Of a stretch of 41,061 bases of DNA, positions 222 through 41,061 are shown in pieces. The notes beneath the pieces were generated by a model, which was given only the letters and a program-made list of their open reading frames with translations, had not been told where the DNA came from and did not search any database. Origin of the DNA: a virus. The position numbers and the translations under genes were made by a program. The stretch lies in the IMG/VR virus record IMGVR_UViG_3300042879_002862, positions 1-41,061 of that record. One strand, given 5' to 3'. Each line of letters opens with the position of its first letter. Position 1 is the first letter of the stretch.

Positions 222-689
222 CTAGGCCGGTTCGGTGTATTCGCCGGGGGTAAGTGAGATGCTTACTGTCTGCGTGGCCACATTCTGCGTGCTTAATCCG
301 CGCTCAAGGCGTGCATGTTTGTTGAGTACATCGAAGGCGTTCGCTAGGTGTCCGAGGTTCGCGCTAGCTTGCTTCTCGGGGTCAGACATGGATTTGAGGG
401 TTTGAAGTTGCACGCTGTCCAAGATGTCCGCTTTAGCCTTGCGGTATTCCTCAACATTATGCAATTCAGCGAATGCCGGCTTGAATTTATCCAGAATCAG
501 GGAAACGGCGCTGTCACTAACACCCATCTTGCGGGCTATCTCGCCTTGCTTGACGCCTCTCGCGTAGTCTAGGACCACTGTCGCAAGCTCACCTTGACTC
601 AGCTTTGATGCCGCACGCTTCACGCCTTTGGGTCGTCCTGCTTTCTTCTTCGCAGTCGCTACAACCTCAACCTCTGTTGTCTCTGTCAT
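222..689 (-). CDS. HTH DNA-binding protein with AT-hook-like N-terminus
   Basis: The protein has about 155 residues from the ATG at 689; a TTG at 725 would add 12. A basic N-terminus (KKKAGRPKGVKR) contains a GRPKG AT-hook-like motif. It is followed by a clear helix-turn-helix (QGEIARKMGVSDSAVSLIL) and a helical C-terminal half. I prefer the ATG because it leaves the gene 16 nt beyond the stop of the upstream XRE gene, although GAGAGG abuts the start codon with almost no spacing. With the neighbouring XRE gene it forms a two-gene regulator operon divergent from the early genes. A regulatory role is inferred. The HTH also resembles those of some small terminase subunits, so a packaging role cannot be excluded. 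Confidence 0.75.
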   Translation of the reverse strand: MTETTEVEVVATAKKKAGRPKGVKRAASKLSQGELATVVLDYARGVKQGEIARKMGVSDSAVSLILDKFKPAFAELHNVEEYRKAKADILDSVQLQTLKSMSDPEKQASANLGHLANAFDVLNKHARLERGLSTQNVATQTVSISLTPGEYTEPA

Positions 690-705
690 CCTCTCAGCGT
701 GAGCC

Positions 706-930
706 CTAATCCGTATCGCTGTCAACTTCCTGCTCTATCAACTCGCCCAGTGCTTTCCAACTTCCCAACGCTTTCTTGAGCGCGACTAGGTGAGTGAGCT
801 TAATTGATCCAGCTCCCTTGCGTGACCAATGCGAGATCACTTGATTGCTGATACCTGTCTCTTGACCGAGACGGTACGCCGTCCAACTTTTCGCCTTCAG
901 TATGCTTTTCAGAATATCTTTCACGCTCAT
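706..930 (-). CDS. XRE/Cro-family HTH regulator
   Basis: A 74-residue protein. Residues about 13-60 form a Cro/CI-type helix-turn-helix (AYRLGQETGISNQVISHWSRKG, where GISNQVISHW spans the turn and recognition helix), followed by a helical tail ending in acidic residues. Its length fits Cro-like regulators without a dimerisation or cleavage domain. It is the first gene of the leftward regulator pair and is transcribed away from the early genes, with about 140 bp of AT-rich sequence between. This is the usual arrangement of a lysogeny or early switch, so it probably binds in that interval. No full-length CI-type repressor is visible in the window. Confidence 0.85.
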   Translation of the reverse strand: MSVKDILKSILKAKSWTAYRLGQETGISNQVISHWSRKGAGSIKLTHLVALKKALGSWKALGELIEQEVDSDTD

Positions 931-3022: not shown

Positions 3023-3032
3023 CCCTAGGATC

Positions 3033-3051
3033 GGGAGCGGTTCGCGCTCCC
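3033..3051 (+). promoter_or_regulatory. Intercistronic hairpin
   Basis: GGGAGCG (3033-3039) pairs with CGCTCCC (3045-3051) around GTTCG. It follows the AGGATCGG core directly and precedes AACCAACTAACC, a degenerate relative of the leader box, and the next gene. There is no T-run. Confidence 0.5.
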
Positions 3052-3080
3052 CTCAATTTAACCAACTAACCAAGGAAAGC

Positions 3081-3308
3081 ATGAAAACCAAACAAGACAA
3101 AGCAACGCAATCGCTTGAGCCAGATTCTATTTTTAGAAAGGCAGCCTCATTGATTCACGCCTATCACTTATGGGGCGGGCTCTCGCCCGACGATCGGGAG
3201 CGGCTAAAACTCTATTGGGCTTTGCTTGATACTGACGAGCGGCAACATATGGCGGAGTGGTGCGAGGAGAACAAAGGACACCTCCCCAACTGGCTGCGTA
3301 TTTACTAA
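3081..3308 (+). CDS. Hypothetical early protein, 75 aa
   Basis: Starts at the ATG at 3081, 6 nt after AAGGAAAG. The protein is soluble and helical (SIFRKAASLIHAYHLWGGLSPDDRERLKLYWALLDTDERQHMAEWCEENKG in overlapping pieces), with no visible catalytic or metal-binding pattern. LSPDDRERL and TDERQHMAEW read as paired amphipathic helices. I recognise no family. Its TAA stop is part of a dispersed-repeat copy, and the next leader element follows. Confidence 0.65.
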   Translation: MKTKQDKATQSLEPDSIFRKAASLIHAYHLWGGLSPDDRERLKLYWALLDTDERQHMAEWCEENKGHLPNWLRIY

Positions 3309-3341
3309 CCCCAGGATCGGCACCAACTACAACCGACGCAG

Positions 3342-3400
3342 CGCCTCCGTGAGGGGGCGTTGTCTCGGGTGATGTTTGCCCGCACTTGGAGACTAGCAAC
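3342..3400 (+). promoter_or_regulatory. Early leader element 4: two hairpins plus GACTAGCAAC
   Basis: CGCCTCC (3342-3348) pairs with GGGGGCG (3353-3359) around a GTGA tetraloop. CGGG (3366-3369) pairs with CCCG (3379-3382) around TGATGTTTG. GACTAGCAAC (3391-3400) then abuts the ATG of the next gene. The second hairpin is a compensatory-change partner of the one at 3749-3765. GGAG in TTGGAGACTAGCAAC is the only available ribosome-binding sequence. Confidence 0.7.
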
Positions 3401-3712
3401 ATGGCAAGGAATCGAAGCGACTCGACGGAGATCGCGCAAGGAATAATTGACCTAATCGGAGGCGACACAGGGCTCTCGCGGCTTAGGGCGGCAAGGATAG
3501 AGGCGCTATCTGATGGCCTTGTCTTCAACCTTATGGCCGACAGCATGACGACCGAGGGGATCGTGGTCATCCGCAAGGTGCCGAAAGGCTACCGGCTGTA
3601 TGTGGTGCAGTTGGGGGGATGGGTTGAGGCGCGAGGGCTTGATGAGGTGAAGCCGGAGGATGTGAAGGCGCAACTTTGGAAACTGATCGGCAAGAAGGAA
3701 CCGACCTTCTAG
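3401..3712 (+). CDS. Hypothetical early protein, 103 aa
   Basis: Starts at the ATG directly after GACTAGCAAC; a TTG start 15 nt upstream is also in frame but would encode the leader box. The N-terminal third is helical (TEIAQGIIDLIGGDTGLSRLRAARIEALSDG). A beta-rich middle (GIVVIRKVPKGYRLYVVQLGGWVEARGLD) and a short helical C-terminus follow. No catalytic or metal motif is visible. The DGLVFNLM...RKVPKGYRLYVV pattern looks like a small alpha/beta fold. Family and function not recognised. Confidence 0.65.
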   Translation: MARNRSDSTEIAQGIIDLIGGDTGLSRLRAARIEALSDGLVFNLMADSMTTEGIVVIRKVPKGYRLYVVQLGGWVEARGLDEVKPEDVKAQLWKLIGKKEPTF

Positions 3713-3723
3713 CACATTCGACC

Positions 3724-3778
3724 GGGTGCCCCTGATGGGGTGCCCCATCGAGTGAAGTTTGCTCGGTAAACGACTAGC
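3724..3778 (+). promoter_or_regulatory. Early leader element 5: two hairpins plus CGACTAGC
   Basis: GGGTGCCCC (3724-3732) pairs with GGGGTGCCC (3737-3745) around TGAT, 9 bp with tandem G-U pairs. CGAG (3749-3752) pairs with CTCG (3762-3765) around TGAAGTTTG, then GTAAACGACTAGC. Compared with element 4, the stem changes from CGGG/CCCG to CGAG/CTCG while the loop changes at one base. AAAGGA upstream of the next ATG is the ribosome-binding site. Confidence 0.7.
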
Positions 3779-3798
3779 TAATTGTATTAAAGGACAAT

Positions 3799-4080
3799 AT
3801 GAGACGCATATTTCTTGCAGTAACAATCATAACCCTGGGATCGGCGGCGACTGGTTGCGGAGTGGTACTCCCCTCCTCTGATCCGTTCATCATGTACGGG
3901 ACCGAAGAAAGCCTGAGAGCTTATCACGATTCCCTCAACGGACTGATCGCCAACTCTAAGACGCAGGACCCTAGCGGAAACTCTGCCTACTGGGACACGA
4001 GACAGGCGCAGGTAAGGAGCGAGGGAAACTATCGCGGTTTCTGGCAGAAACTAACTTCAGGATCGGAAGCAACAAAGTAA
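3799..4080 (+). CDS. Predicted lipoprotein, 93 aa
   Basis: Starts with ATG behind AAAGGA. The N-terminus MRRIFLAVTIITLGSAATGC is a typical lipoprotein signal: two arginines, a hydrophobic stretch and an ATG-Cys lipobox with cleavage before Cys20. The remaining 73 residues are hydrophilic and contain YGTEESLRAYHDSLNGLI and WDTRQAQVRSEGNYRGFW, with no known enzyme motif. It should be exported and lipidated in the host envelope. Early phage lipoproteins often block superinfection, but that role is inferred. The lysis genes lie far away, so an outer spanin is less likely. Dispersed-repeat copies lie near both ends of the gene. Confidence 0.7.
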   Translation: MRRIFLAVTIITLGSAATGCGVVLPSSDPFIMYGTEESLRAYHDSLNGLIANSKTQDPSGNSAYWDTRQAQVRSEGNYRGFWQKLTSGSEATK

Positions 4081-4093
4081 GGAGATTAGCGAT

Positions 4094-4339
4094 ATGACAA
4101 GCATGAAAACATTCTTTCGTTGGTATTATCAAACAGCGGCTCTCGTTGGCATCCCCGTTGTGTTCTTGTTGTTGATGATAGGGGCGCAAAAGTTCCTGTT
4201 CACGCTGACCTGCACAACTGCCGGGTATCGCTGCGAGTATGCGCTAGGGGCGCAGTCTGCGATGGCTGAATATATGTCTGAACTTGTGGCAGGAAATGAC
4301 GGCATGGACATTATCGCTAAGCCTAGGGCAAAAAGATAA
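4094..4339 (+). CDS. Single-pass membrane protein, 81 aa
   Basis: Starts at the ATG at 4094 behind AAGGAGATTAGCG. Residues about 15-36 (AALVGIPVVFLLLMIGAQKFL) form a membrane segment after a short basic, aromatic N-terminus. The C-terminal part has two cysteines (TCTTAGYRC) that could form a disulfide outside the cytoplasm, then an alanine-rich helix and a basic tail. The gene lies 13 nt after the lipoprotein gene, so the two are probably expressed together and may act together at the envelope. Family not recognised. Confidence 0.65.
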   Translation: MTSMKTFFRWYYQTAALVGIPVVFLLLMIGAQKFLFTLTCTTAGYRCEYALGAQSAMAEYMSELVAGNDGMDIIAKPRAKR

Positions 4340-4348
4340 TTGTCAACG

Positions 4349-4427
4349 GGGTGTATCATGGTATGACACGCCCACAAAAAAGGGGGTACGGGACTTTCGT
4401 CCTATACCCCCACCTACCGACTAGCAA
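4349..4427 (+). promoter_or_regulatory. Early leader element 6: two hairpins plus CGACTAGCAA
   Basis: GGGTGT (4349-4354) pairs with ACACGCCC (4366-4373, using the last six bases). A longer stem pairs GGGGGTA (4382-4388) with TACCCCC (4405-4411), with GGAC/GTCC nested inside. ACCTACCGACTAGCAA follows. The order of hairpin, hairpin and box is the same as in the other elements. Confidence 0.65.
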
Positions 4428-4436
4428 TCAGAAGGA

Positions 4437-4470
4437 CACCTTTGAGGTGCAGCCATAAGGCTACGCCTCA
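4437..4470 (+). promoter_or_regulatory. Two mutually exclusive hairpins before the integrase gene
   Basis: CACCT (4437-4441) can pair with AGGTG (4445-4449). Alternatively TGAGG (4443-4447) can pair with CCTCA (4466-4470), with AGCC/GGCT nested inside around ATAA. The two share bases 4443-4447 and exclude each other. The integrase ribosome-binding site AGGAG lies at 4477-4481, just downstream. A switch in integrase translation is possible but unproven. Confidence 0.45.
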
Positions 4471-4491: not shown

Positions 4492-5508
4492 ATGGCTAAA
4501 GTAATCCATTTACGCGCACCCACCCCAAAAGAGTCTGTAACAGAGGGCACCAGCGAGGTGCTTGATGCGCTTAATCTTTGGCTCCAGATCAGACCCGAGA
4601 ACACGCGCCGTGTGTACTTACGCATCGCTGAAGAGTGGTCGATGTTCCTAGGCTATTCCCTTACCCAAGGATCGGCGGCGAAGGTATGGAAGAAGGCGAC
4701 TCACAAAGATGCCCAGTCATTTATCAACCAAGCAAGGCAGCGACCAGCACAACAAGGGAGGGCAAGCGAGGCAAGCCCGGATGGGTGCGTTTCGATGGCG
4801 ACAGTTAAGCACAAGGCCGGAGTGTTGAAGGCTGCGTATGATGCGCTCACCGCTCACGGGTTGCTCGAGAGTAATCCCTTCCATGCTGTGTGCCTGGAGA
4901 TGAAGCGGTTTAAGAGCGGAGAGCGTAGGCGTAATGAGGGGATGAGCGCTGACGAGGTGAAGAGGTTCCTTACCTTCACGCCACTAGACCCCGAGCACTA
5001 CCGCGACCGGGCTATGTTTCATCTCATGTTCGGTGCCGCGCTTAGGCGTTCCGAGTTAGTCGATGTAACGTTATCGGACATTATCACCACGAACAAAGGG
5101 AGTACCTACCTTCGATTGCGTAAGACCAAATCCCAGAACCCTCAGAAGGTATCGCTCCCCGAGTGGGTGGCCGAAGAGATCCAAGACTTCAAGCGGCGCC
5201 GCAATCAGGAGGGTGCGGGAGAGAGAGACCTGATGTTCGTTCGGTATCTCAACCGGGGCGAGGAACCGATGGGAGAGAAGTATATTTACCGAGTTTTCAA
5301 GTCCTACCTCAAACGCTTCAAGCTGAACCCTGATTACTCCCCTCACTGTGCCCGTGTGACAGCCATCACGCAGCTATTACGCCAAGGATACAGTCACCGC
5401 GAGGTCCAAGAACTATCCCGCCACGCAAGCATCGTGATGGTCGAGAAGTACGACCGGCGCATGTATGAGATTGAAGAATCCCCATCTAAAAAACTTTCAT
5501 ACGACTAG
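4492..5508 (+). CDS. int: Tyrosine recombinase / phage integrase
   Basis: A 338-residue site-specific recombinase. Residues about 20-125 form a SAM-like core-binding domain. The C-terminal catalytic domain shows the full set of residues: Arg185 in ALRRSEL, Lys213 in the KTKSQ hairpin, His285 and Arg288 in PHCAR, His311 in SRHAS and the nucleophile Tyr320 in EKYDR. Tyrosine recombinases cut and rejoin DNA through a covalent 3'-phosphotyrosine. In a phage this usually integrates the genome into the host chromosome, so a temperate lifestyle is likely, although dimer resolution is an alternative. No excisionase is recognised. The N-terminus lacks an obvious arm-binding domain. The coding sequence contains one dispersed-repeat copy. 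Confidence 0.95.
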   Translation: MAKVIHLRAPTPKESVTEGTSEVLDALNLWLQIRPENTRRVYLRIAEEWSMFLGYSLTQGSAAKVWKKATHKDAQSFINQARQRPAQQGRASEASPDGCVSMATVKHKAGVLKAAYDALTAHGLLESNPFHAVCLEMKRFKSGERRRNEGMSADEVKRFLTFTPLDPEHYRDRAMFHLMFGAALRRSELVDVTLSDIITTNKGSTYLRLRKTKSQNPQKVSLPEWVAEEIQDFKRRRNQEGAGERDLMFVRYLNRGEEPMGEKYIYRVFKSYLKRFKLNPDYSPHCARVTAITQLLRQGYSHREVQELSRHASIVMVEKYDRRMYEIEESPSKKLSYD

Positions 5509-32171: not shown

Positions 32172-32845
32172 TAGTGCGCTCCGTCACAAAACTCGTACTC
32201 AGCCCTCTCGCGCTCCCCGCTCTTAGCTTCGCCGAACTCTGATTGATACTGTCGCTCAATCTCGCGCTGCTGCTGTACTGGAAGGCCGTACTCAAACGAT
32301 AGCTTGTGAGCTAGTCCGAATGTAATGGCCTCAAGGTAGCGCACCGGGAAGTCAGCTGTTCCAGCCGCCGTGTCAAAGTCCTTGAGCTTTACGATGCCAG
32401 TGTAATAGAGCGTTCTAGTCTGCTGAGGGACCGGCCATACATAGAGCGTAGGGGTTATCTGCCCATTGAGCGCCACTATCGTAGGGTCGCCGGTACTGGT
32501 CTTATCCGGTACATCTACATACTGCCGATAGGAGGCTACGTCGCAGGGATGGTCTATGTTGTCGATACGAACGTAGGCTCGGTCTATGGCGTAAACCGCT
32601 GGGTCGGTCGATGCGAGCGAGTAGCTTGCCTGCCCCGTGGTAAGGGTCTGAGTGAACTCTTTGAGGGTCCACAGGAACACATGCTTACTCTGCCAGCTCT
32701 TAATCATCGAGTTGAGAGCGATAATCCCCTGCTGATACATCTCAGCGGAAAGCACGTCCCCAAGGGAGAACTTACCGATAATCCGATAAGCCCGTTCGAT
32801 GATCTCGTTTCGAGTTACGTTGAAGTCGTATTCAGATGCAGCCAT
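32171..32845 (-). CDS. P22 gp4-like tail accessory / head-completion protein
   Basis: A 224-residue protein with the pattern of P22 gp4-type adaptors: an N-terminal helical part (NEIIERAYRIIGKFSLGD, then ALNSMIKSWQSKHVFLWTLK), followed by TLTTGQASYSL and a beta region (DNIDHPCDVASYRQYVDVPD), and helices at the end. P22 gp4 binds below the portal and opens the way for gp10. It is much shorter than transglycosylase-fused homologues, and no catalytic residues are visible. It precedes the fibre and gp10-like genes in transcription order, as expected. Confidence 0.75.
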   Translation of the reverse strand: MAASEYDFNVTRNEIIERAYRIIGKFSLGDVLSAEMYQQGIIALNSMIKSWQSKHVFLWTLKEFTQTLTTGQASYSLASTDPAVYAIDRAYVRIDNIDHPCDVASYRQYVDVPDKTSTGDPTIVALNGQITPTLYVWPVPQQTRTLYYTGIVKLKDFDTAAGTADFPVRYLEAITFGLAHKLSFEYGLPVQQQREIERQYQSEFGEAKSGERERAEYEFCDGAH

Positions 32846-32857
32846 TGTGTCCCGTTA

Positions 32858-32896
32858 GAAGAAAACGGGGAGAGCCCCAAACAGGCAGCCCTCCCC
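32858..32896 (-). terminator. Terminator after the capsid module
   Basis: On the minus strand, GGGG-CTCT-CCCC (32878 to 32867) is followed by GTTTTCTTC (32866-32858). An alternative longer stem pairs GGGGAG with CTCCCC between 32896 and 32867. The GC stem plus T-rich tail between the capsid-side genes and the tail genes fits a partial rho-independent terminator that would limit tail-gene expression relative to capsid. Confidence 0.5.
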
Positions 32897-32903
32897 TAAA
32901 AAC

Positions 32904-33311
32904 CTACGACTGAAGCGTGTACTCAACAGTCAAGCGAACAACCGTACCCACAGTTGGGGTAGCGATTGAAACCGCAAGAATGTCGATAGTGTCATCAGAT
33001 GTATACTTGTACCCATGCCCAGTATGAGCATTAGTACGAGTGAGTGCCGATGCTGTATAAGCCGTCGAAGTAATGTGACGGTCGGTATCCCCACCATCTC
33101 CTACTGCGAGGTTAGCCGTTGCGCCTACTGCTGCTGACGAAGTCAGGATGCAGTTGAGCACTGTGGCACCAGCAGGAATCTTGCACATCTCAAGAACGTC
33201 GTTGGTTGCGAATCCAGTTGGGATTGCAATCTCAGCCGTTACTGTCGTTGTATCAAGACCGCTACGAGCCATTACGGATGCAGCTACTTTTGAACTTTGA
33301 AATGTTGCCAT
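32904..33311 (-). CDS. Small beta-rich capsid-associated protein, 135 aa
   Basis: An Ala/Thr/Val-rich beta protein (TTVTAEIAIPTGFATNDVLE, KIPAGATVLNCILTSSAAVG, ANLAVGDGGDTDRHITSTAY) with no cysteine cluster or charged helices. It directly follows the major capsid gene with a 16-nt gap, and a terminator-like hairpin follows it. Small beta-sandwich proteins at this place are often head-decoration proteins; that is inference from composition and position. Confidence 0.6.
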   Translation of the reverse strand: MATFQSSKVAASVMARSGLDTTTVTAEIAIPTGFATNDVLEMCKIPAGATVLNCILTSSAAVGATANLAVGDGGDTDRHITSTAYTASALTRTNAHTGHGYKYTSDDTIDILAVSIATPTVGTVVRLTVEYTLQS

Positions 33312-35283: not shown

Positions 35284-37446
35284 TTACATTATCCCCGGAC
35301 CTTGATTGGCCTCATTCGGGGGTAAATTCTCTTGTGGTGCTTGGAGAAATCTTTGCGCTACTTCAGGGGGAATCTGCCCCTGCGCGATGAGAGTCTTTTG
35401 GATCTCAGCATCAGCCTTCGCTTGTTCTGCGCTCGCTTGCGCCTGTCCTTGTTGCGCCATCATGTTCATGAGCTTCTGCTTCACGGAGTCAGGCATGTCG
35501 GCAAACTCAAGGATTGCTTCGGGTGGTATCGGTTGACCAGCTTGTGCCATCTCGCTTAGGAGCATGAACGTGCTTAGTCTCATCGACGGCGACCAGTTAC
35601 TCTCAGTAACCTCTACGTCGTAGTATTCAAGCTCTGCTGTGTTGAGCAGAGTCATAATGTCCTCGTCACTAAACTCATCGAGAGGCTGACCACCTACTTC
35701 TACAGGGGCCTTGCTGTTAGCGTTACGAACGATGCGAAGGATTCTGTCTGGGGTGTAGTAGCGCTGAATGAGCTTAACCAAGAGACGCCCTAGCTTCTGC
35801 TTTGCGAACGCAAGGTTATCAAACAGGTACTCACTACCCATGAGCTTCTGGTTACGACGCTGAGCAAAGAGATTGCCCGACTCGTTAGCGCCGTTAGGGT
35901 TGATGATGACGTTCATCTGGTCGAGAACTTGCTGTTCTCCAACCTGCATCATCTGAATAAGCTCACCAGGGAACTTAACGCCATCGACTCGCTGAGGGGG
36001 TCTCGTTACGTCATTAAGCTCGATAACCCAGCCAGGGGATGTAGAGATACGCTTAAACTTCTCCTTCTCGTTATCAGGGAACGTGGATTGGTCGATGAAC
36101 CATCCATAAGCCGCCACCTTGTTGATAACATCGAGAGCCGCTGAGTAGTTCTTGTTGATATACATCTGAGCGTCTTTCGACGACTCGACCTTGCCCCAGA
36201 ACTTGTAGCCTCGCTTCTTGGCGTAAATCGGGAGGACAAAGAAGTCATCAGCCGGAAGGTCAGCCGGATGCTCATCTGAGAGAACCACGCCACCAGCTAC
36301 CTTAGTGACTCGCATCTTCGTAATGTTCTGTTCTACAACGTAGAAGCCAGGGATAGTGCGAACGGCTCTAAGGTCCTTAGCGTCCCAGCCATAAGCATTG
36401 AAGTAGAAATCCTCTCCTGCATTAGCCGCAACCGAAGCCTTCTCGTACATACGACGCCAGCACTCAAGCACCCGGTATTCCTTGCGAGCGATGTTTACGA
36501 GCGGGTCTTCGCCCAAGGTCTGAATAGGATTCCCGTGAGCGTAGTTATCGTAGGCGTACTGAACGCTCTTCTTCGGGTCTAGTACAAAGTCTTGGAAGTC
36601 TTTCTGAATATCCTCAGCCTTATCAGGCCAGAGCTGTTCAATCTTAGCGCGACTGAGCCAGCGGTGCTTAATCAGGTACTCGCAGTCAGAGAGGTCTATC
36701 TTCTCGTGTGGCCCAAAAACTACATCGAGGTACGGGAACTTCTCGACGACAATCTCGCCCCTAAGGTCGTTATCAAACTTTACATAGACGTTCAGCAATC
36801 CACGGCCAACGATGACCGCATCCTCAAACGCTAGGCTCTCTTCCCGTGAGAAGAAGCAGCGGTTCAAGATATGCTTGGTAGCAACATTCAATAGGTCCGC
36901 GACTTTTTGATCACCCCCTTCTTGCGGTACGTAGCGAATGTCAGTTCGCTCGGCGCGTTGCATACCCGTTATTTGGTCTACGTTCTTCTCAATTTTATTG
37001 ATAGTAACCGCAGCTCGGCTAAGGCTTTCAAGGCGACTCTTCTCAGTCTCTTCCCAATGCTTACCAGCATACATGTCTTCCGATTCCTGCGCCGCTTTGA
37101 GACTGTCACGTTCAAGCTCCCTCCCTGTCTTAAAGAGTTCCTGTACCTCAGCAAGAACCTGAGCATCATCCTCTTTTTTTTTGGCTGTCTTAACTACGTA
37201 CTCTTCGATCTGATGCGTATGCCCGTCTAAGGCAGGAGCAACGAGCCAACCCCCAGGAGAACCAGGAGCAATCTCATTACCCATCTCATCCATCTGAGGA
37301 GGCGTCGGCGGCTGAAAAGTAATATCATGGGTATGTCCAGCGTCGGTCGAGCAAAGGCCAAGGCCAGTCTCGTCGTTGATGTAAACGATGTGGTGATGTG
37401 CCGCCCTACCTAGGCCGAATCGTGATAGCTTCTTGAGCGCCTTCAT
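35284..37446 (-). CDS. P22-type portal protein with His-rich N-terminal extension
   Basis: 720 residues from the ATG at 37446, which overlaps the terminase stop (ATGA); a TTG 12 nt upstream is less likely. The body matches P22-like portals in length and pattern (EESEDMYAGKHW-like start, INKIEKNVDQITGMQRAERT, EDAVIVGRGLLNVYVKFDND). A long C-terminal Gln/Ala-rich helix follows (MMAQQGQAQASAEQAKADAE), as in the P22 barrel. The first 80 residues are unusual, with two HxH motifs (AGHTHD, DGHTHQ) and an HHH cluster. The dodecameric portal forms the DNA entry vertex. Confidence 0.85.
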   Translation of the reverse strand: MKALKKLSRFGLGRAAHHHIVYINDETGLGLCSTDAGHTHDITFQPPTPPQMDEMGNEIAPGSPGGWLVAPALDGHTHQIEEYVVKTAKKKEDDAQVLAEVQELFKTGRELERDSLKAAQESEDMYAGKHWEETEKSRLESLSRAAVTINKIEKNVDQITGMQRAERTDIRYVPQEGGDQKVADLLNVATKHILNRCFFSREESLAFEDAVIVGRGLLNVYVKFDNDLRGEIVVEKFPYLDVVFGPHEKIDLSDCEYLIKHRWLSRAKIEQLWPDKAEDIQKDFQDFVLDPKKSVQYAYDNYAHGNPIQTLGEDPLVNIARKEYRVLECWRRMYEKASVAANAGEDFYFNAYGWDAKDLRAVRTIPGFYVVEQNITKMRVTKVAGGVVLSDEHPADLPADDFFVLPIYAKKRGYKFWGKVESSKDAQMYINKNYSAALDVINKVAAYGWFIDQSTFPDNEKEKFKRISTSPGWVIELNDVTRPPQRVDGVKFPGELIQMMQVGEQQVLDQMNVIINPNGANESGNLFAQRRNQKLMGSEYLFDNLAFAKQKLGRLLVKLIQRYYTPDRILRIVRNANSKAPVEVGGQPLDEFSDEDIMTLLNTAELEYYDVEVTESNWSPSMRLSTFMLLSEMAQAGQPIPPEAILEFADMPDSVKQKLMNMMAQQGQAQASAEQAKADAEIQKTLIAQGQIPPEVAQRFLQAPQENLPPNEANQGPGIM

Positions 37447-39068
37447 ACGTACAACCAAGAGTTAGACTTAGGCCCAGAGGAGTTATTTTTGAACGCCTTA
37501 TCCCACTCGCTCTCTTGAACGGCCTGTTGAAACTTCCCAAACCGGAAGTCTCGAAAGAGATCATACTGGTAAGCCAACGCATCAAGAGCGTCGTCGTGCC
37601 AGAAGGGGAATTTTTGCATCTCCAATTTCAATCTCTCGCGGTATGCAGCCGGTACAGACGTACACAAATGCAGCTTCCCGTGTAACAAAGGCCACTGTAA
37701 TGCAGCCTCAATGCGCTGCTTCTTGTTCCTTCCGGCTGGTCTAAGGACAACCAACCCTCCATTATCGACACTAATGGCTTTGCCTTTGGCATGTAAGTGT
37801 TTCGCAATGTGGATTTCAGCGGTGCTAATGCCCACCTTCTCGATTCCAAGCTGGCGAATCATCCCGTTACGAAGGAACATGCGAACTACATTGTCCAAGG
37901 CTTCAGCCTCAGTCATCGGCTCAACCATCATGTCGAGGACAAATACCCGGCTAGCTCCAACGTCATCGCGGAAGGGCTCAACCCCACACACGATCATCGC
38001 CCAGCTATCCCCCTGCCGGTTGTCGCTCCTCCTCTCTCCCGCCGGGTCCACCGTCATGAACTTGAATAGGTTCTTAGGTAGCTCGGCTGGACTAACCTCA
38101 ACCAGCATCGAAGCGTCTAGTTTCTCCGTCCCCTGAGGCGTTGGGTCCAAGAGCTGCTGGGAGTAGAACATCTGCCGATTGATTCTAAGCTCCGCTAACC
38201 GCTCCTCAGGCAAGTAAGCAGACGTCCCACTCGGACTACCATCCACCGTCGCAGGTCTCACCCTGGTCGCGTATACGAGCTTTGAGTCGCTTGTAGCCTT
38301 GTGCCGGAGAGTGTTGAGCAATCCCTCATGGTGATAGGTCGTCCCGATAACCCGGTGAGCACCGTCGATGGTTCCAAGGTTCTGGCTCATGTCGAAGGCG
38401 TCCTTGAGCTTAGCCATCATGTCAGGGCTATTAACCAGGTCGGGAACCTCAATGTCGTCGTAGACGCGAAGGCTATAGTGCTTACCTACCGGGCTACCCT
38501 CAACCAATCCCCACGCCTCAACGGTCGCCTCCTTGTAGAAACCTTTGCGCTTAACGATAAGCCCATCCGTCTCCGACCACTTGTCAGCTTCAGCGCGAGG
38601 GTCAGCGTAGAGGATGTCAGGGAAGCAAGCCTTTAAGAGGCTAGAGTTCTCAAAGATAGACTTAATGGAACGCAGGAAAGCTAGCGCAGCAGGCCGCGAG
38701 AACGAGAAGATTCCAACCCGCTCCTCAGGATTCTTGAGAATGTCCTGAATGGTCTTAGCCGTCGTGATAATCGTTGACTTGGCATGCTCACGAGCCCAAA
38801 GGTCTAGGGTATGGGAACGAGGTCCACGCTCAACCTCAAGGCACCTAGCCACCCACCAGGGGTTATTGGCTATCGAGACCCGCATCCCGAAGTAGACTAG
38901 GAACCAGAGATTATACTTGAACAGCTCAGCCAGAGCCGCCTCGTTGGTCATCCCTACCTTCTGAGCGTCGCCTAGGTACCTACAGAAATCACAGCCGTAC
39001 TTAACGCCAGGGATACGGGTCCACTTGATGCCGTCTATCTCTAAGTCAGGCTTTTGCTCGTCGGTCAA
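37443..39068 (-). CDS. terL: Terminase large subunit
   Basis: A 541-residue packaging motor starting at TTG, which overlaps the upstream stop (TTGA) with CGGAG 9 nt before; no ATG lies near in frame. The ATPase has a variant Walker A, AREHAKST (92-99), without the usual glycines, and Walker B VYDDIE (202-207). The C-terminal nuclease shows Asp341 in TVDPAGE and the pair HDDALD near residues 491-496. TerL pumps DNA into the procapsid and cuts it. The variant A-loop occurs in a known branch of phage terminases. Confidence 0.9.
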   Translation of the reverse strand: MTDEQKPDLEIDGIKWTRIPGVKYGCDFCRYLGDAQKVGMTNEAALAELFKYNLWFLVYFGMRVSIANNPWWVARCLEVERGPRSHTLDLWAREHAKSTIITTAKTIQDILKNPEERVGIFSFSRPAALAFLRSIKSIFENSSLLKACFPDILYADPRAEADKWSETDGLIVKRKGFYKEATVEAWGLVEGSPVGKHYSLRVYDDIEVPDLVNSPDMMAKLKDAFDMSQNLGTIDGAHRVIGTTYHHEGLLNTLRHKATSDSKLVYATRVRPATVDGSPSGTSAYLPEERLAELRINRQMFYSQQLLDPTPQGTEKLDASMLVEVSPAELPKNLFKFMTVDPAGERRSDNRQGDSWAMIVCGVEPFRDDVGASRVFVLDMMVEPMTEAEALDNVVRMFLRNGMIRQLGIEKVGISTAEIHIAKHLHAKGKAISVDNGGLVVLRPAGRNKKQRIEAALQWPLLHGKLHLCTSVPAAYRERLKLEMQKFPFWHDDALDALAYQYDLFRDFRFGKFQQAVQESEWDKAFKNNSSGPKSNSWLYV

Positions 39069-39436
39069 TTTATGCTCCGGAGGCGGTAAGGACTCTTCCT
39101 CAACACATGCCTATTCCTCCAGATGAAGGTAACTAGCTCCTTCCTGTCAATCTCAAGGGCGTCACAGATCCACTGGCAGGTCCCAGGGGCGCACCTCTTA
39201 TCGGAGATAAGCCAGTGCCGGTCATCCTTGCGCCATCGCTTGACGTCGTTACAGCGCACCAAGCCTAAAGCCCCAGAGATCCCCTGCGCCAGGCAGACCG
39301 CCCACATCTTTAGCTCCGGCTGACGCCTGTCCCAATCCCCCGACACTATCGGGAACACTTGCTCTAAGGTAATAAACCCTTCCGTGTATCTCATCGCGCT
39401 ACAGATTCTATCGCGACCGATAACTATGACCGGCAA
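39065..39436 (-). CDS. Small protein before terminase; possible small subunit
   Basis: The first reading gives 123 residues; a second Met (ATG at 39394) would give 109 and may be preferred, as neither start has a strong ribosome-binding site. The sequence holds WDRRQPELKMWAVCLAQGIS, a four-cysteine middle and the end TCQWICDALEIDRKELVTFI followed by WRNRHVLRK. The latter looks like a helical DNA-binding or packaging-linked motif. The gene overlaps terL by 4 nt. Small terminase subunits usually sit here, but no standard fold is recognised. Confidence 0.55.
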   Translation of the reverse strand: MPVIVIGRDRICSAMRYTEGFITLEQVFPIVSGDWDRRQPELKMWAVCLAQGISGALGLVRCNDVKRWRKDDRHWLISDKRCAPGTCQWICDALEIDRKELVTFIWRNRHVLRKSPYRLRSIN

Positions 39437-39470
39437 GAATAGTGATGTTTTTTATGGACGCCTGACCCAG

Positions 39471-39930
39471 AGCTAGAATAGAATCGTCTTAGCTTTGATC
39501 CATGCGGCGGGTAGTCAGCATGGGGAGCTAGCAACTACTACATTGAGTGCCTGGATACCGTAAGGTCCAGGGTGACTGGTGAAGAGCCACTCACGGCAAC
39601 GTTTTAAATTTTTTGGCGACCCACAAAGTACCAGTGTTGGCGAAGTAGCATTGGATACTTGAGTTAGTGAACCTCTCCACAGTCTATCCGGTAACGGGTA
39701 GATAGTTACCTAGCGAAAGGTAGGTAGCGGCCAGAGCCCTGAAACATTGGTGCTCCCAGAGGCTAAGGAATAAGGCGACCAGACAGAGACTAAACGGGTA
39801 AGGGCTCTGACCATCCCATCCTATAGCGATATAGGACTCGACTTCGTAGAAACCTCAGATGGAGCGTTTTTTCTGCATAGTTTGATTCACTGTCCTCCTA
39901 GTTGAGAACGGTGATCCCAAACTATGCACT
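39471..39930 (+). ncRNA. Large structured RNA candidate
   Basis: Most of this non-coding stretch can pair. CCATGC (39500-39505) pairs with GCATGG (39517-39522), and its loop GTAGT pairs with ACTAC (39534-39538), forming a pseudoknot. CCTGGA/TCCAGG (39550-39571) ends in a GTAA loop. GTGACTGG pairs with CCACTCAC (39572-39594, one mismatch). AAGTACCAGTGTT pairs with AGCATTGG-A-TACTT (39626-39660). TCTATCCG/CGGGTAGA (39683-39702) has a GTAA loop. TTACCTA pairs with TAGGTAG (39706-39727). CAGAGCCC (39732-39739) pairs over long range with GGGCTCTG (39802-39809). TCCTATA/TATAGGA (39819-39836) has a GCGA loop. GNRA loops appear only in plus orientation. A CTAGCAAC box (39528-39535) resembles the early leaders. 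Confidence 0.65.
39867..39928. promoter_or_regulatory. T-run and 11-bp inverted repeat at the end of the RNA candidate
   Basis: Six T residues (39867-39872) precede an exact 11-base inverted repeat, TGCATAGTTTG (39874-39884) and CAAACTATGCA (39918-39928). Inner bases can extend the stem with a bulge. It could end the RNA, act as a protein-binding site or belong to the same RNA fold. Confidence 0.5.
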
Positions 39931-39991
39931 TTCCTAGATGGTGGCCCTAGAAGCCAAGCAACAAGGGATCATGTAGCGTCTGGTAGAGATC

Positions 39992-40020
39992 CTAGTAGAG
40001 AAGAGTAGAGAAGCTACTAG
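39992..40020. other. Hairpin with GA-rich loop and tandem repeat
   Basis: CTAGTAG (39992-39998) is inverted as CTACTAG (40014-40020). The 10-mer AGTAGAGAAG is repeated in tandem at 39994-40003 and 40004-40013, and the purine-rich run continues to about 40040. No gene is visible from 39931 to 40132. Confidence 0.5.
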
Positions 40021-40132
40021 AAGAGAAGAGGTTAGTAGTAGAAACTGCAATCTGATCAGAACAAACGCCATCCCAGAAAAAACACTCGATTCCCTTACCG
40101 CACCTCCACCCACCAATAGTAAACTCCCGCTC

Positions 40133-40609
40133 ATGGCCAAATGCTTTGAGTGCAAAAACCCCGCTACCCATAAGCACCACGTAGTCCCTGAATCCCTTGG
40201 TGGGACGCAGACCGTTCCCCTCTGCGACTACTGCCACCCAAAAGCTCACGGCGAAAATGGCTACTGGCCACTCGGCCAACTCATCAAAGCTAAGCTCCAA
40301 GAACGCAAAGCCCAGGGATACCGCATCGGCGGTCATCCCTCATACGGAACTATGTTCACCGCTGACAACCGCATCGTCGAGAACCCAGAGGAGAGATACT
40401 GGCAATACGTCGGCAAAGCCCTCCATGACATGGGGCTACACTTTAAGGCCATCGCCAAGATGTTTAACGCTCGCGGTGTTCCTACCAAAACAAGACGTGG
40501 ACGCTGGTCAGCGTGGAACGTCAACAAAGCCGTGAGGCGATTGAGAGAGGAACTGGGCGAGCAACACACACCGGGGGTGTGGTCGAGGGGAGAGAAGGTG
40601 CGGCCTTAG
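40133..40609 (+). CDS. HNH-type zinc protein with serine-recombinase DNA-binding domain
   Basis: 158 residues. The first 40 form a zinc-stabilised HNH-like motif: Cys4/Cys7, His15-His16 in HKHHVVPESLGG, and Cys31/Cys34 with His39 in CDYCHPKAH. The rest (GYRIGGHPSYG, then NPEERYWQYVGKALHDMGLH, FKAIAKMFNARGVPTKTRRG, RWSAWNVNKAVRRL) matches the Recombinase domain of large serine recombinases, without the catalytic resolvase domain. It thus looks like a homing-type nuclease using a recombinase module for DNA binding. The start codon has no Shine-Dalgarno sequence. Its place near terminase also allows a packaging role, as for other HNH proteins. Confidence 0.75.
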   Translation: MAKCFECKNPATHKHHVVPESLGGTQTVPLCDYCHPKAHGENGYWPLGQLIKAKLQERKAQGYRIGGHPSYGTMFTADNRIVENPEERYWQYVGKALHDMGLHFKAIAKMFNARGVPTKTRRGRWSAWNVNKAVRRLREELGEQHTPGVWSRGEKVRP

Positions 40610-40933: not shown

Positions 40934-40952
40934 GACAAAGGCTCCACCCCCC
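40934..40952. repeat. Terminal direct repeat, right copy
   Basis: An exact copy of bases 1-19. Placing the two copies on top of each other closes the sequence into a circle and makes the HNH gene pair neighbour to the regulator pair at 222-930. Confidence 0.8.
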
Positions 40953-41061
40953 CCCCCCCCCCCCCCCCCCGCCCCCGCCCCCGCCCCCCCCCACGCCCCC
41001 CCCCGCCCGCCCCCCCCCCCCCCCCCCCCCCCCCCGCCCCCCCCCCCCCCCGCCGAGCCGG
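40953..41061. other. Poly-C contig tail, probable artefact
   Basis: About 110 bases are C with scattered G and hardly any other base. The corresponding stretch after the left repeat copy is quite different. Reverse-complement poly-G read tails from two-colour sequencing would give such a sequence. I treat it as assembly noise and call no gene or structure in it. Confidence 0.7.

Follow-up and report, generated by a model that had tools for sequence, protein, structure and literature searches.

The window analysed here is the whole of IMG/VR virus record IMGVR_UViG_3300042879_002862 (41,061 bases, positions 1 to 41,061). Near one end of this phage DNA an interval without a plausible gene lies beside the terminase gene, and an earlier note had placed in it an ornate plus-strand RNA of some 450 nt. 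The locus raises the question of whether such an RNA exists and, if so, what it does for the phage. The stretch from 39490 to about 39930 (+) is a real, conserved, structured RNA of approximately 440 nt, here called type A. With a probability of roughly 0.6, it is the product of a stand-alone gene, namely a trans-acting ornate RNA with its own promoter, exchangeable between phages and probably directed at a variable or host target.

Genomic context

The early genes of the record lie on the plus strand and the late genes on the minus strand. The integrase is encoded at 4492-5508 (+), and the late minus-strand set comprises the portal, the major head protein, the tail genes and terL. As the note had stated, the only large interval without a plausible gene is 39437-40132; a second gap, 3023-3798, holds short genes by inspection. 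The features around the interval are the following.

37443-39068 (-): terminase large subunit, terL (phrog_38, E=5e-42), the anchor of the locus
39065-39436 (-): small gene between the RNA promoter and terL, conserved in relatives
39455-39484 (+): sigma-70-like promoter TGGACG-18-TAGAAT (scan match), with a predicted RNA start at about 39490
40133-40609 (+): HNH endonuclease gene (158 aa) downstream of the RNA (phrog_1271 HNH endonuclease, E=8e-4)
222-725 (-): HTH protein, terS candidate (weak HTH matches only)

A family search with the small gene at 39065-39436 (-) returned no match. The HTH gene at 222-725 (-) is presumed to be terS. In the relative L011 the gene order can be read directly as HTH gene (terS candidate), HNH gene (opposite strand), RNA (opposite strand), small gene and terL, and the counterpart of this HTH gene was found at window 222-725, which on a circular map is the other side of the RNA-HNH segment. 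The matching HTH gene and the order in L011 together indicate that the map is circular or circularly permuted and that the record is one cut of it. The promoter scan yielded one match where 0.7 are expected by chance, taken by itself a weak signal. In homologues the -35 region (TTTTTAcTwGACG) is found again ahead of type A RNAs and also ahead of the type B RNAs described below.

The record ends in a long C-rich run (40943-41061). Several relatives have a C-rich tract (CCCCCACTCCCCCCCC-like) past the RNA on this side of terL, and the poly-C end of the window is located there. The terminal run is probably a real tract stretched by assembly, and the tract is perhaps a packaging site. A CTGATCAG-type palindrome (AATCTGATCAG) is located at about 40046-40056 of the window and recurs upstream of the HNH gene in homologues, twice in L004; it is possibly a leader or operator. 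The spacer that follows the RNA (39960-40050) is C-poor and TAG/AGA-rich in most type A phages.

Annotated phages are distant relatives only, with TerL at 24-28% in three records and the portal and head protein at 22-35% among the matches listed. When bacterial genomes were scanned with TerL in search of the host, a single relative came up, at 46% and in an unclassified bin, and no TerL relative was found in 28 order relatives of that bin.

Distribution of the type A RNA

Relatives of the phage were collected by TerL search (13) and by profile search (30). The type A RNA is carried by L002, L004, L006, L007 (with its duplicate L008), L010, L018, L025 and L048. With the window, these make ten IMG/VR records (nine homologues), and in all ten the RNA adjoins terL in the same slot. 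Three different conserved blocks, used as patterns to scan 2.9 million viral contigs, matched the known type A set only. A fourth one, an 18-nt terminal-hairpin pattern, also matched L024 and L026; both matches are coding sequence and were rejected as chance. Pairwise identity of the RNAs is 67-88%, a good range for covariation, except that L002 and L004 are nearly the same. No long open frame common to the homologues was found on the RNA strand. Searches with blastn against annotated phages (type A and the type B, C and D RNAs introduced below) and against plasmids (type A) returned no match, and no description of the type A RNA was found in the open-access papers searched.

Secondary structure and covariation

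The fold energy of the region lies below that of shuffled sequences on the plus strand (z = -3.9) and less so on the minus strand (z = -2.6), and in a genome-wide control the plus strand of the RNA region ranked second of 104 strand-windows. Some type A homologues fold hardly better than shuffles (L048, z -1.3). Folding energy alone is thus suggestive and not unique, and the covariation is decisive. Two further stretches of the window, 4001-4460 (-) and 32801-33260 (both strands), also fold well for their composition (z about -4 to -5).

The structure model was started from RNAalifold on a nine-sequence alignment, which predicted 99 pairs, two-sided changes occurring in 37 of them. A misaligned hairpin was then removed along with three competing pairs, and an outer 5' stem and a pseudoknot were added. 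Over the nine aligned sequences the final model of 102 pairs scores 0.291 for covariation, with 96.3% of cells paired and two-sided changes in 35 pairs (78 cells). A shuffle control for the same model gave 88.5% paired, 15.6 two-sided pairs and a score of 0.138, and a slid control with partners moved by 1-3 columns gave 34.6-41.3% paired and 3-4 two-sided pairs. The structure was partly derived from the same alignment, so the slid control favours the model and the two-sided changes are the stronger evidence. The pairing of 96% against 35-41% in the slid control, together with the 35 two-sided pairs, establishes a real conserved RNA. The note had counted eight or more helices; the model has 19, at least one two-sided change being found in 14 of them. 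The elements are listed below in 5' to 3' order.

39490-39530 (+): 5' domain, with an outer stem 39490-39494/39526-39530 (79% paired, two pairs with two-sided changes) and a hairpin 39500-39505/39518-39523 (100% paired, two-sided changes in 5 of 6 pairs)
39511-39538 (+): putative pseudoknot of GUAGU (39511-39515) with ACUAC (39534-39538), pairing possible in 9/9, letters invariant
39544-39840 (+): long-range closing helix around the core, 39544-39548/39836-39840 (95.6% paired, one two-sided and one one-sided pair)
39550-39571 (+): hairpin with a GUAA tetraloop (39560-39563) and four two-sided pairs
39572-39660 (+): three core hairpins, 39572-39594, 39595-39622 and 39626-39660, with two, one and six two-sided pairs
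39684-39764 (+): three hairpins, 39684-39703, 39705-39728 and 39729-39764, the first and third from the alignment model and the second from separate folds of eight homologues
39774-39798 (+): near-invariant strand GGCGACCAGAcAGAGACUAAACGGG, mostly unpaired in the model, one C/T position varying across nine sequences
39820-39835 (+): hairpin with a GNRA loop (GCGA in the window), two two-sided pairs, stem of varying length
39848-39873 (+): hairpin GAAAC-CUC[AGAUG]GAG-C-GUUU, from separate folds of homologues and repeat analysis, carrying the first direct-repeat copy (AGATGG, 39856-39861)
39874-39928 (+): long 3' terminal hairpin, 99% paired, four two-sided pairs
39935-39940 (+): second direct-repeat copy, AGATGG, matching the first within each phage (9/9)

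Like the pseudoknot, the inner long-range helices 39661-39665/39803-39807 and 39671-39674/39796-39799 hardly vary, and all three are consistent with the model without providing a covariation test. In the hairpin 39705-39728 the sequence varies and the stem is kept. The GGCGACCAGAcAGAGACUAAACGGG strand is a putative functional core. No U-run follows the terminal hairpin, and no standard intrinsic terminator fixes the 3' end.

The direct repeat consists of AG plus 3-5 letters; one copy is placed in the loop of the penultimate hairpin and the other 75-80 nt downstream, immediately past the terminal hairpin. The letters after AG vary from phage to phage (ATGG, ATGAC, TCATC, TCAC, TCAT, TGA) and agree within each (9/9, two of them near-copies). 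No third segment in cis pairs with both copies at a consistent position. The concerted change of the two copies suggests that both contact the same partner, a protein or a nucleic acid.

Other details of the note fared unevenly. Among its three GNRA tetraloops, GTAA at 39560 and the loop at 39826 are kept in 9/9 sequences, the latter as GCGA, GCAA or GAAA on a covarying stem, whereas GTAA at 39691 occurs only in the window, L002 and L004. A perfect 8-bp long-range helix (39732-39739/39802-39809), contained in a 12-nt inverted repeat (39729-39740/39801-39812), has all eight pairs in the window alone and shows no two-sided change; its 5' arm sits in a covarying local hairpin (about 39734-39755, four two-sided pairs), and it is ruled out as a conserved element. 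The CTAGCAAC box, said to link the RNA to the early leaders, is absent at this place in homologues, and its four window copies were reached by 4 of 100 shuffles, so that this link finds no support.

Comparison with known RNA families

The note could not match the RNA to known families, and an Rfam search of the window, at the gathering score and at E<=10, likewise gave chance matches only. The homologues and the other RNA types gave none beyond chance matches and the tRNAs of L036. There was no match to tmRNA or RNase P RNA, and ARAGORN found no tRNA or tmRNA in the window. The covariance models of ROOL and HEARO also gave no match, nor did that of GOLLD at the gathering score or at E<=10, for types B, C and D as well as type A. 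The RNA is probably a new class within a known kind, the ornate RNAs of phages, and it may be likened to GOLLD and ROOL by kind, not by membership.

Like HEARO or omega-RNA, which lies upstream of IscB or IsrB, the type A RNA is a structured RNA upstream of an HNH-encoding gene; however, its slot also exists without HNH, and the adjoining ORF is a 158-aa HNH protein and no IscB/IsrB-type gene. A protein of 158 aa is far too small for IscB. The phi29 pRNA is also the product of a phage RNA gene near packaging genes. Type A is much longer, its phage has a TerL-type terminase, and an unrelated RNA replaces it at nearly identical TerL.

The structures of GOLLD and ROOL have been solved, and to our knowledge neither has a known function. 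With GOLLD the type A RNA shares the character of a large, ornate, phage-borne ncRNA of unknown function, and tRNA genes lie beside type D as they often do beside GOLLD; it differs in length (about 440 nt against often over 800) and in having no tRNA beside it. ROOL is likewise an ornate phage RNA and has pseudoknots, of which type A has a putative one; the sequences differ. The ROOL family is characterised by a homo-oligomeric nanocage. Both GOLLD and ROOL are phage RNAs often found near tRNA islands, and ROOL, with its pseudoknots, was proposed to form an RNA-only complex (PMC12286853). In the summary of Harris and Breaker (2018) given in PMC7567579, GOLLD RNA is described as accumulating in lytic infection and as dispensable for phage production. 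An abundant ncRNA of about 800 nt in phage ICP1 lies in an ORF-less gap beside the lysis cluster, with no tRNA adjoining (PMC7567579). As a large phage ncRNA in such a gap it resembles type A, here compared by description; it is twice as long, and its neighbour is the lysis cluster.

Exchange of RNAs at the locus

Four relatives (L003, L005, L009 and L011) carry a different RNA, type B, in the same slot. Where the flanks are similar enough for comparison (L003, L009), types A and B have the promoter region in common. In type B, two-sided changes were found in 22 of 98 predicted pairs against 1-4 in slid controls, a covariation weaker than that of type A and drawn from two divergent lineages. 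No sequence relation between types A and B was detected by nhmmer --max.

TerL is up to about 90% identical between type A and type B phages, and mapping the A/B labels onto the TerL tree takes three changes or more, across branches with good support. When L048 (A) is compared with L011 (B), homology stands at 82% as far as the promoter region; there it ends, and downstream of the RNA it picks up again at 71% and later 85%. For L003 (B) against L004 or L002 (A), homology at 84-90% ends in the promoter region and returns on the downstream side, around the HNH gene. The break and resumption of homology around the RNA show that the RNA was replaced as a cassette. Among type A phages the trees of the RNA and of TerL are in broad agreement, so that the signal of exchange comes from A versus B only.

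Further candidates were found in more distant phages. L012-L014 (TerL 55%) have, in the same place, a candidate type C RNA of about 450 nt (z -4.3), and L036-L038 (TerL 54%) have a candidate type D RNA (z -3.6); both candidates rest on single sequences with low folding energy. In L036 the type D candidate is followed immediately by genes for tRNA-Ser, tRNA-Ile and tRNA-Met on the same strand (L036:2284-2598 (-)). The more distant TerL relatives L039, L041, L043-L046 and L052 have no obvious RNA at the slot. Covariance models of the type A 5' and 3' domains found no match at the B, C or D loci, and a common origin of the four types thus has no support from nhmmer, blastn or the two domain models. 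A GAUC-CAA motif seen by eye near the 3' hairpins of the types is not enough for a common origin.

A small ORF between the RNA and the HNH gene is present in type B phages (L003:605-799 (-) and L011:4863-5051 (-)) and ends in ...AExRFxLALAK; a similar ORF end was seen by eye in L007, a type A phage.

Function of the RNA

The HNH gene lies downstream of the RNA on the same strand in types A and B, a point against the stand-alone reading, and the promoter upstream of the RNA could serve the HNH gene. A cis-acting leader controlling this gene, like a long riboswitch or attenuator, is nevertheless unlikely. The RNA-HNH spacing varies, another small ORF can intervene (L003, L011), and no standard terminator was found. 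The HNH gene is not an obligatory neighbour of the slot, as it is missing beside type C (L014), and type D is followed by same-strand tRNA genes (L036). These two slots argue that the RNA is not merely an HNH leader, and together with the promoter region they support a stand-alone gene.

The RNA lies between terL and the terS candidate and opposite to both in orientation, as would be expected if the RNA or its promoter regulated the packaging genes, transcription against the terS candidate silencing or delaying it until late infection. Such regulation is quite improbable here: interference needs no elaborate conserved fold, yet 102 pairs are maintained, and the RNA overlaps neither gene. Its position beside terL, near the recurrent C-rich tract that may mark a packaging site, and the paired direct repeats flanking the terminal hairpin would also fit a packaging RNA akin to phi29 pRNA, or a packaging site that really acts as DNA. 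The replacement of the RNA by an unrelated one at TerL about 90% identical (L003 versus L002 and L004) is not expected of a fixed motor part, and base-pair covariation argues against a pure DNA site, so that this explanation is very unlikely. A self-splicing intron, intact or as a remnant, that the HNH endonuclease next to it had moved could account for the HNH neighbour, for cassette exchange as homing and for the invariant ACAGAGACUAAACGGG of the homologues, which we take to resemble the group I R element, but it is highly improbable, as there is no Rfam intron match at E<=10 and no interrupted gene, what lies upstream is a promoter region instead of an exon, reading downstream revealed no complement to the GACUA strand (hence no P7 of a group I intron), and the region around the HNH gene is 84% identical between L003 and L002 while the RNA is replaced.

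A stand-alone RNA gene thus remains the preferred explanation. The RNA would have a sigma-70-type promoter of its own and be transcribed, from the slot between the terS candidate and terL, in the direction opposite to that of the late packaging genes. It would work in trans as a folded object, as may GOLLD and ROOL, with a multi-helix scaffold whose invariant single-stranded segments may bind, during infection or lysogeny, either the ribosome or a protein of the host or phage. The target probably varies, or is subject to antagonistic selection as a host factor or a defence would be, rather than being a fixed part of the packaging motor, since phages with nearly the same terminase carry unrelated ornate RNAs under the same promoter region. 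Tentatively, the slot may be a dedicated ornate-RNA locus, in which several unrelated architectures with the same job are swapped under one promoter in the manner of non-homologous protein modules.

Implications

Large ornate RNAs are among the least understood molecules of bacteria and phages. The type A RNA adds to them a new class that is compact (about 440 nt) and well supported, has a promoter region and occupies a defined locus, and the natural A/B exchange in close relatives provides a handle on function. An RNA-exchange slot of this kind was not seen described in the open-access literature. If the RNAs are interchangeable, one need of the phage would be met by several unrelated RNA folds. 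A dedicated locus, if real, would be the RNA counterpart of exchangeable anti-defence or host-takeover cassettes and would hold at least two, perhaps four, new RNA classes.
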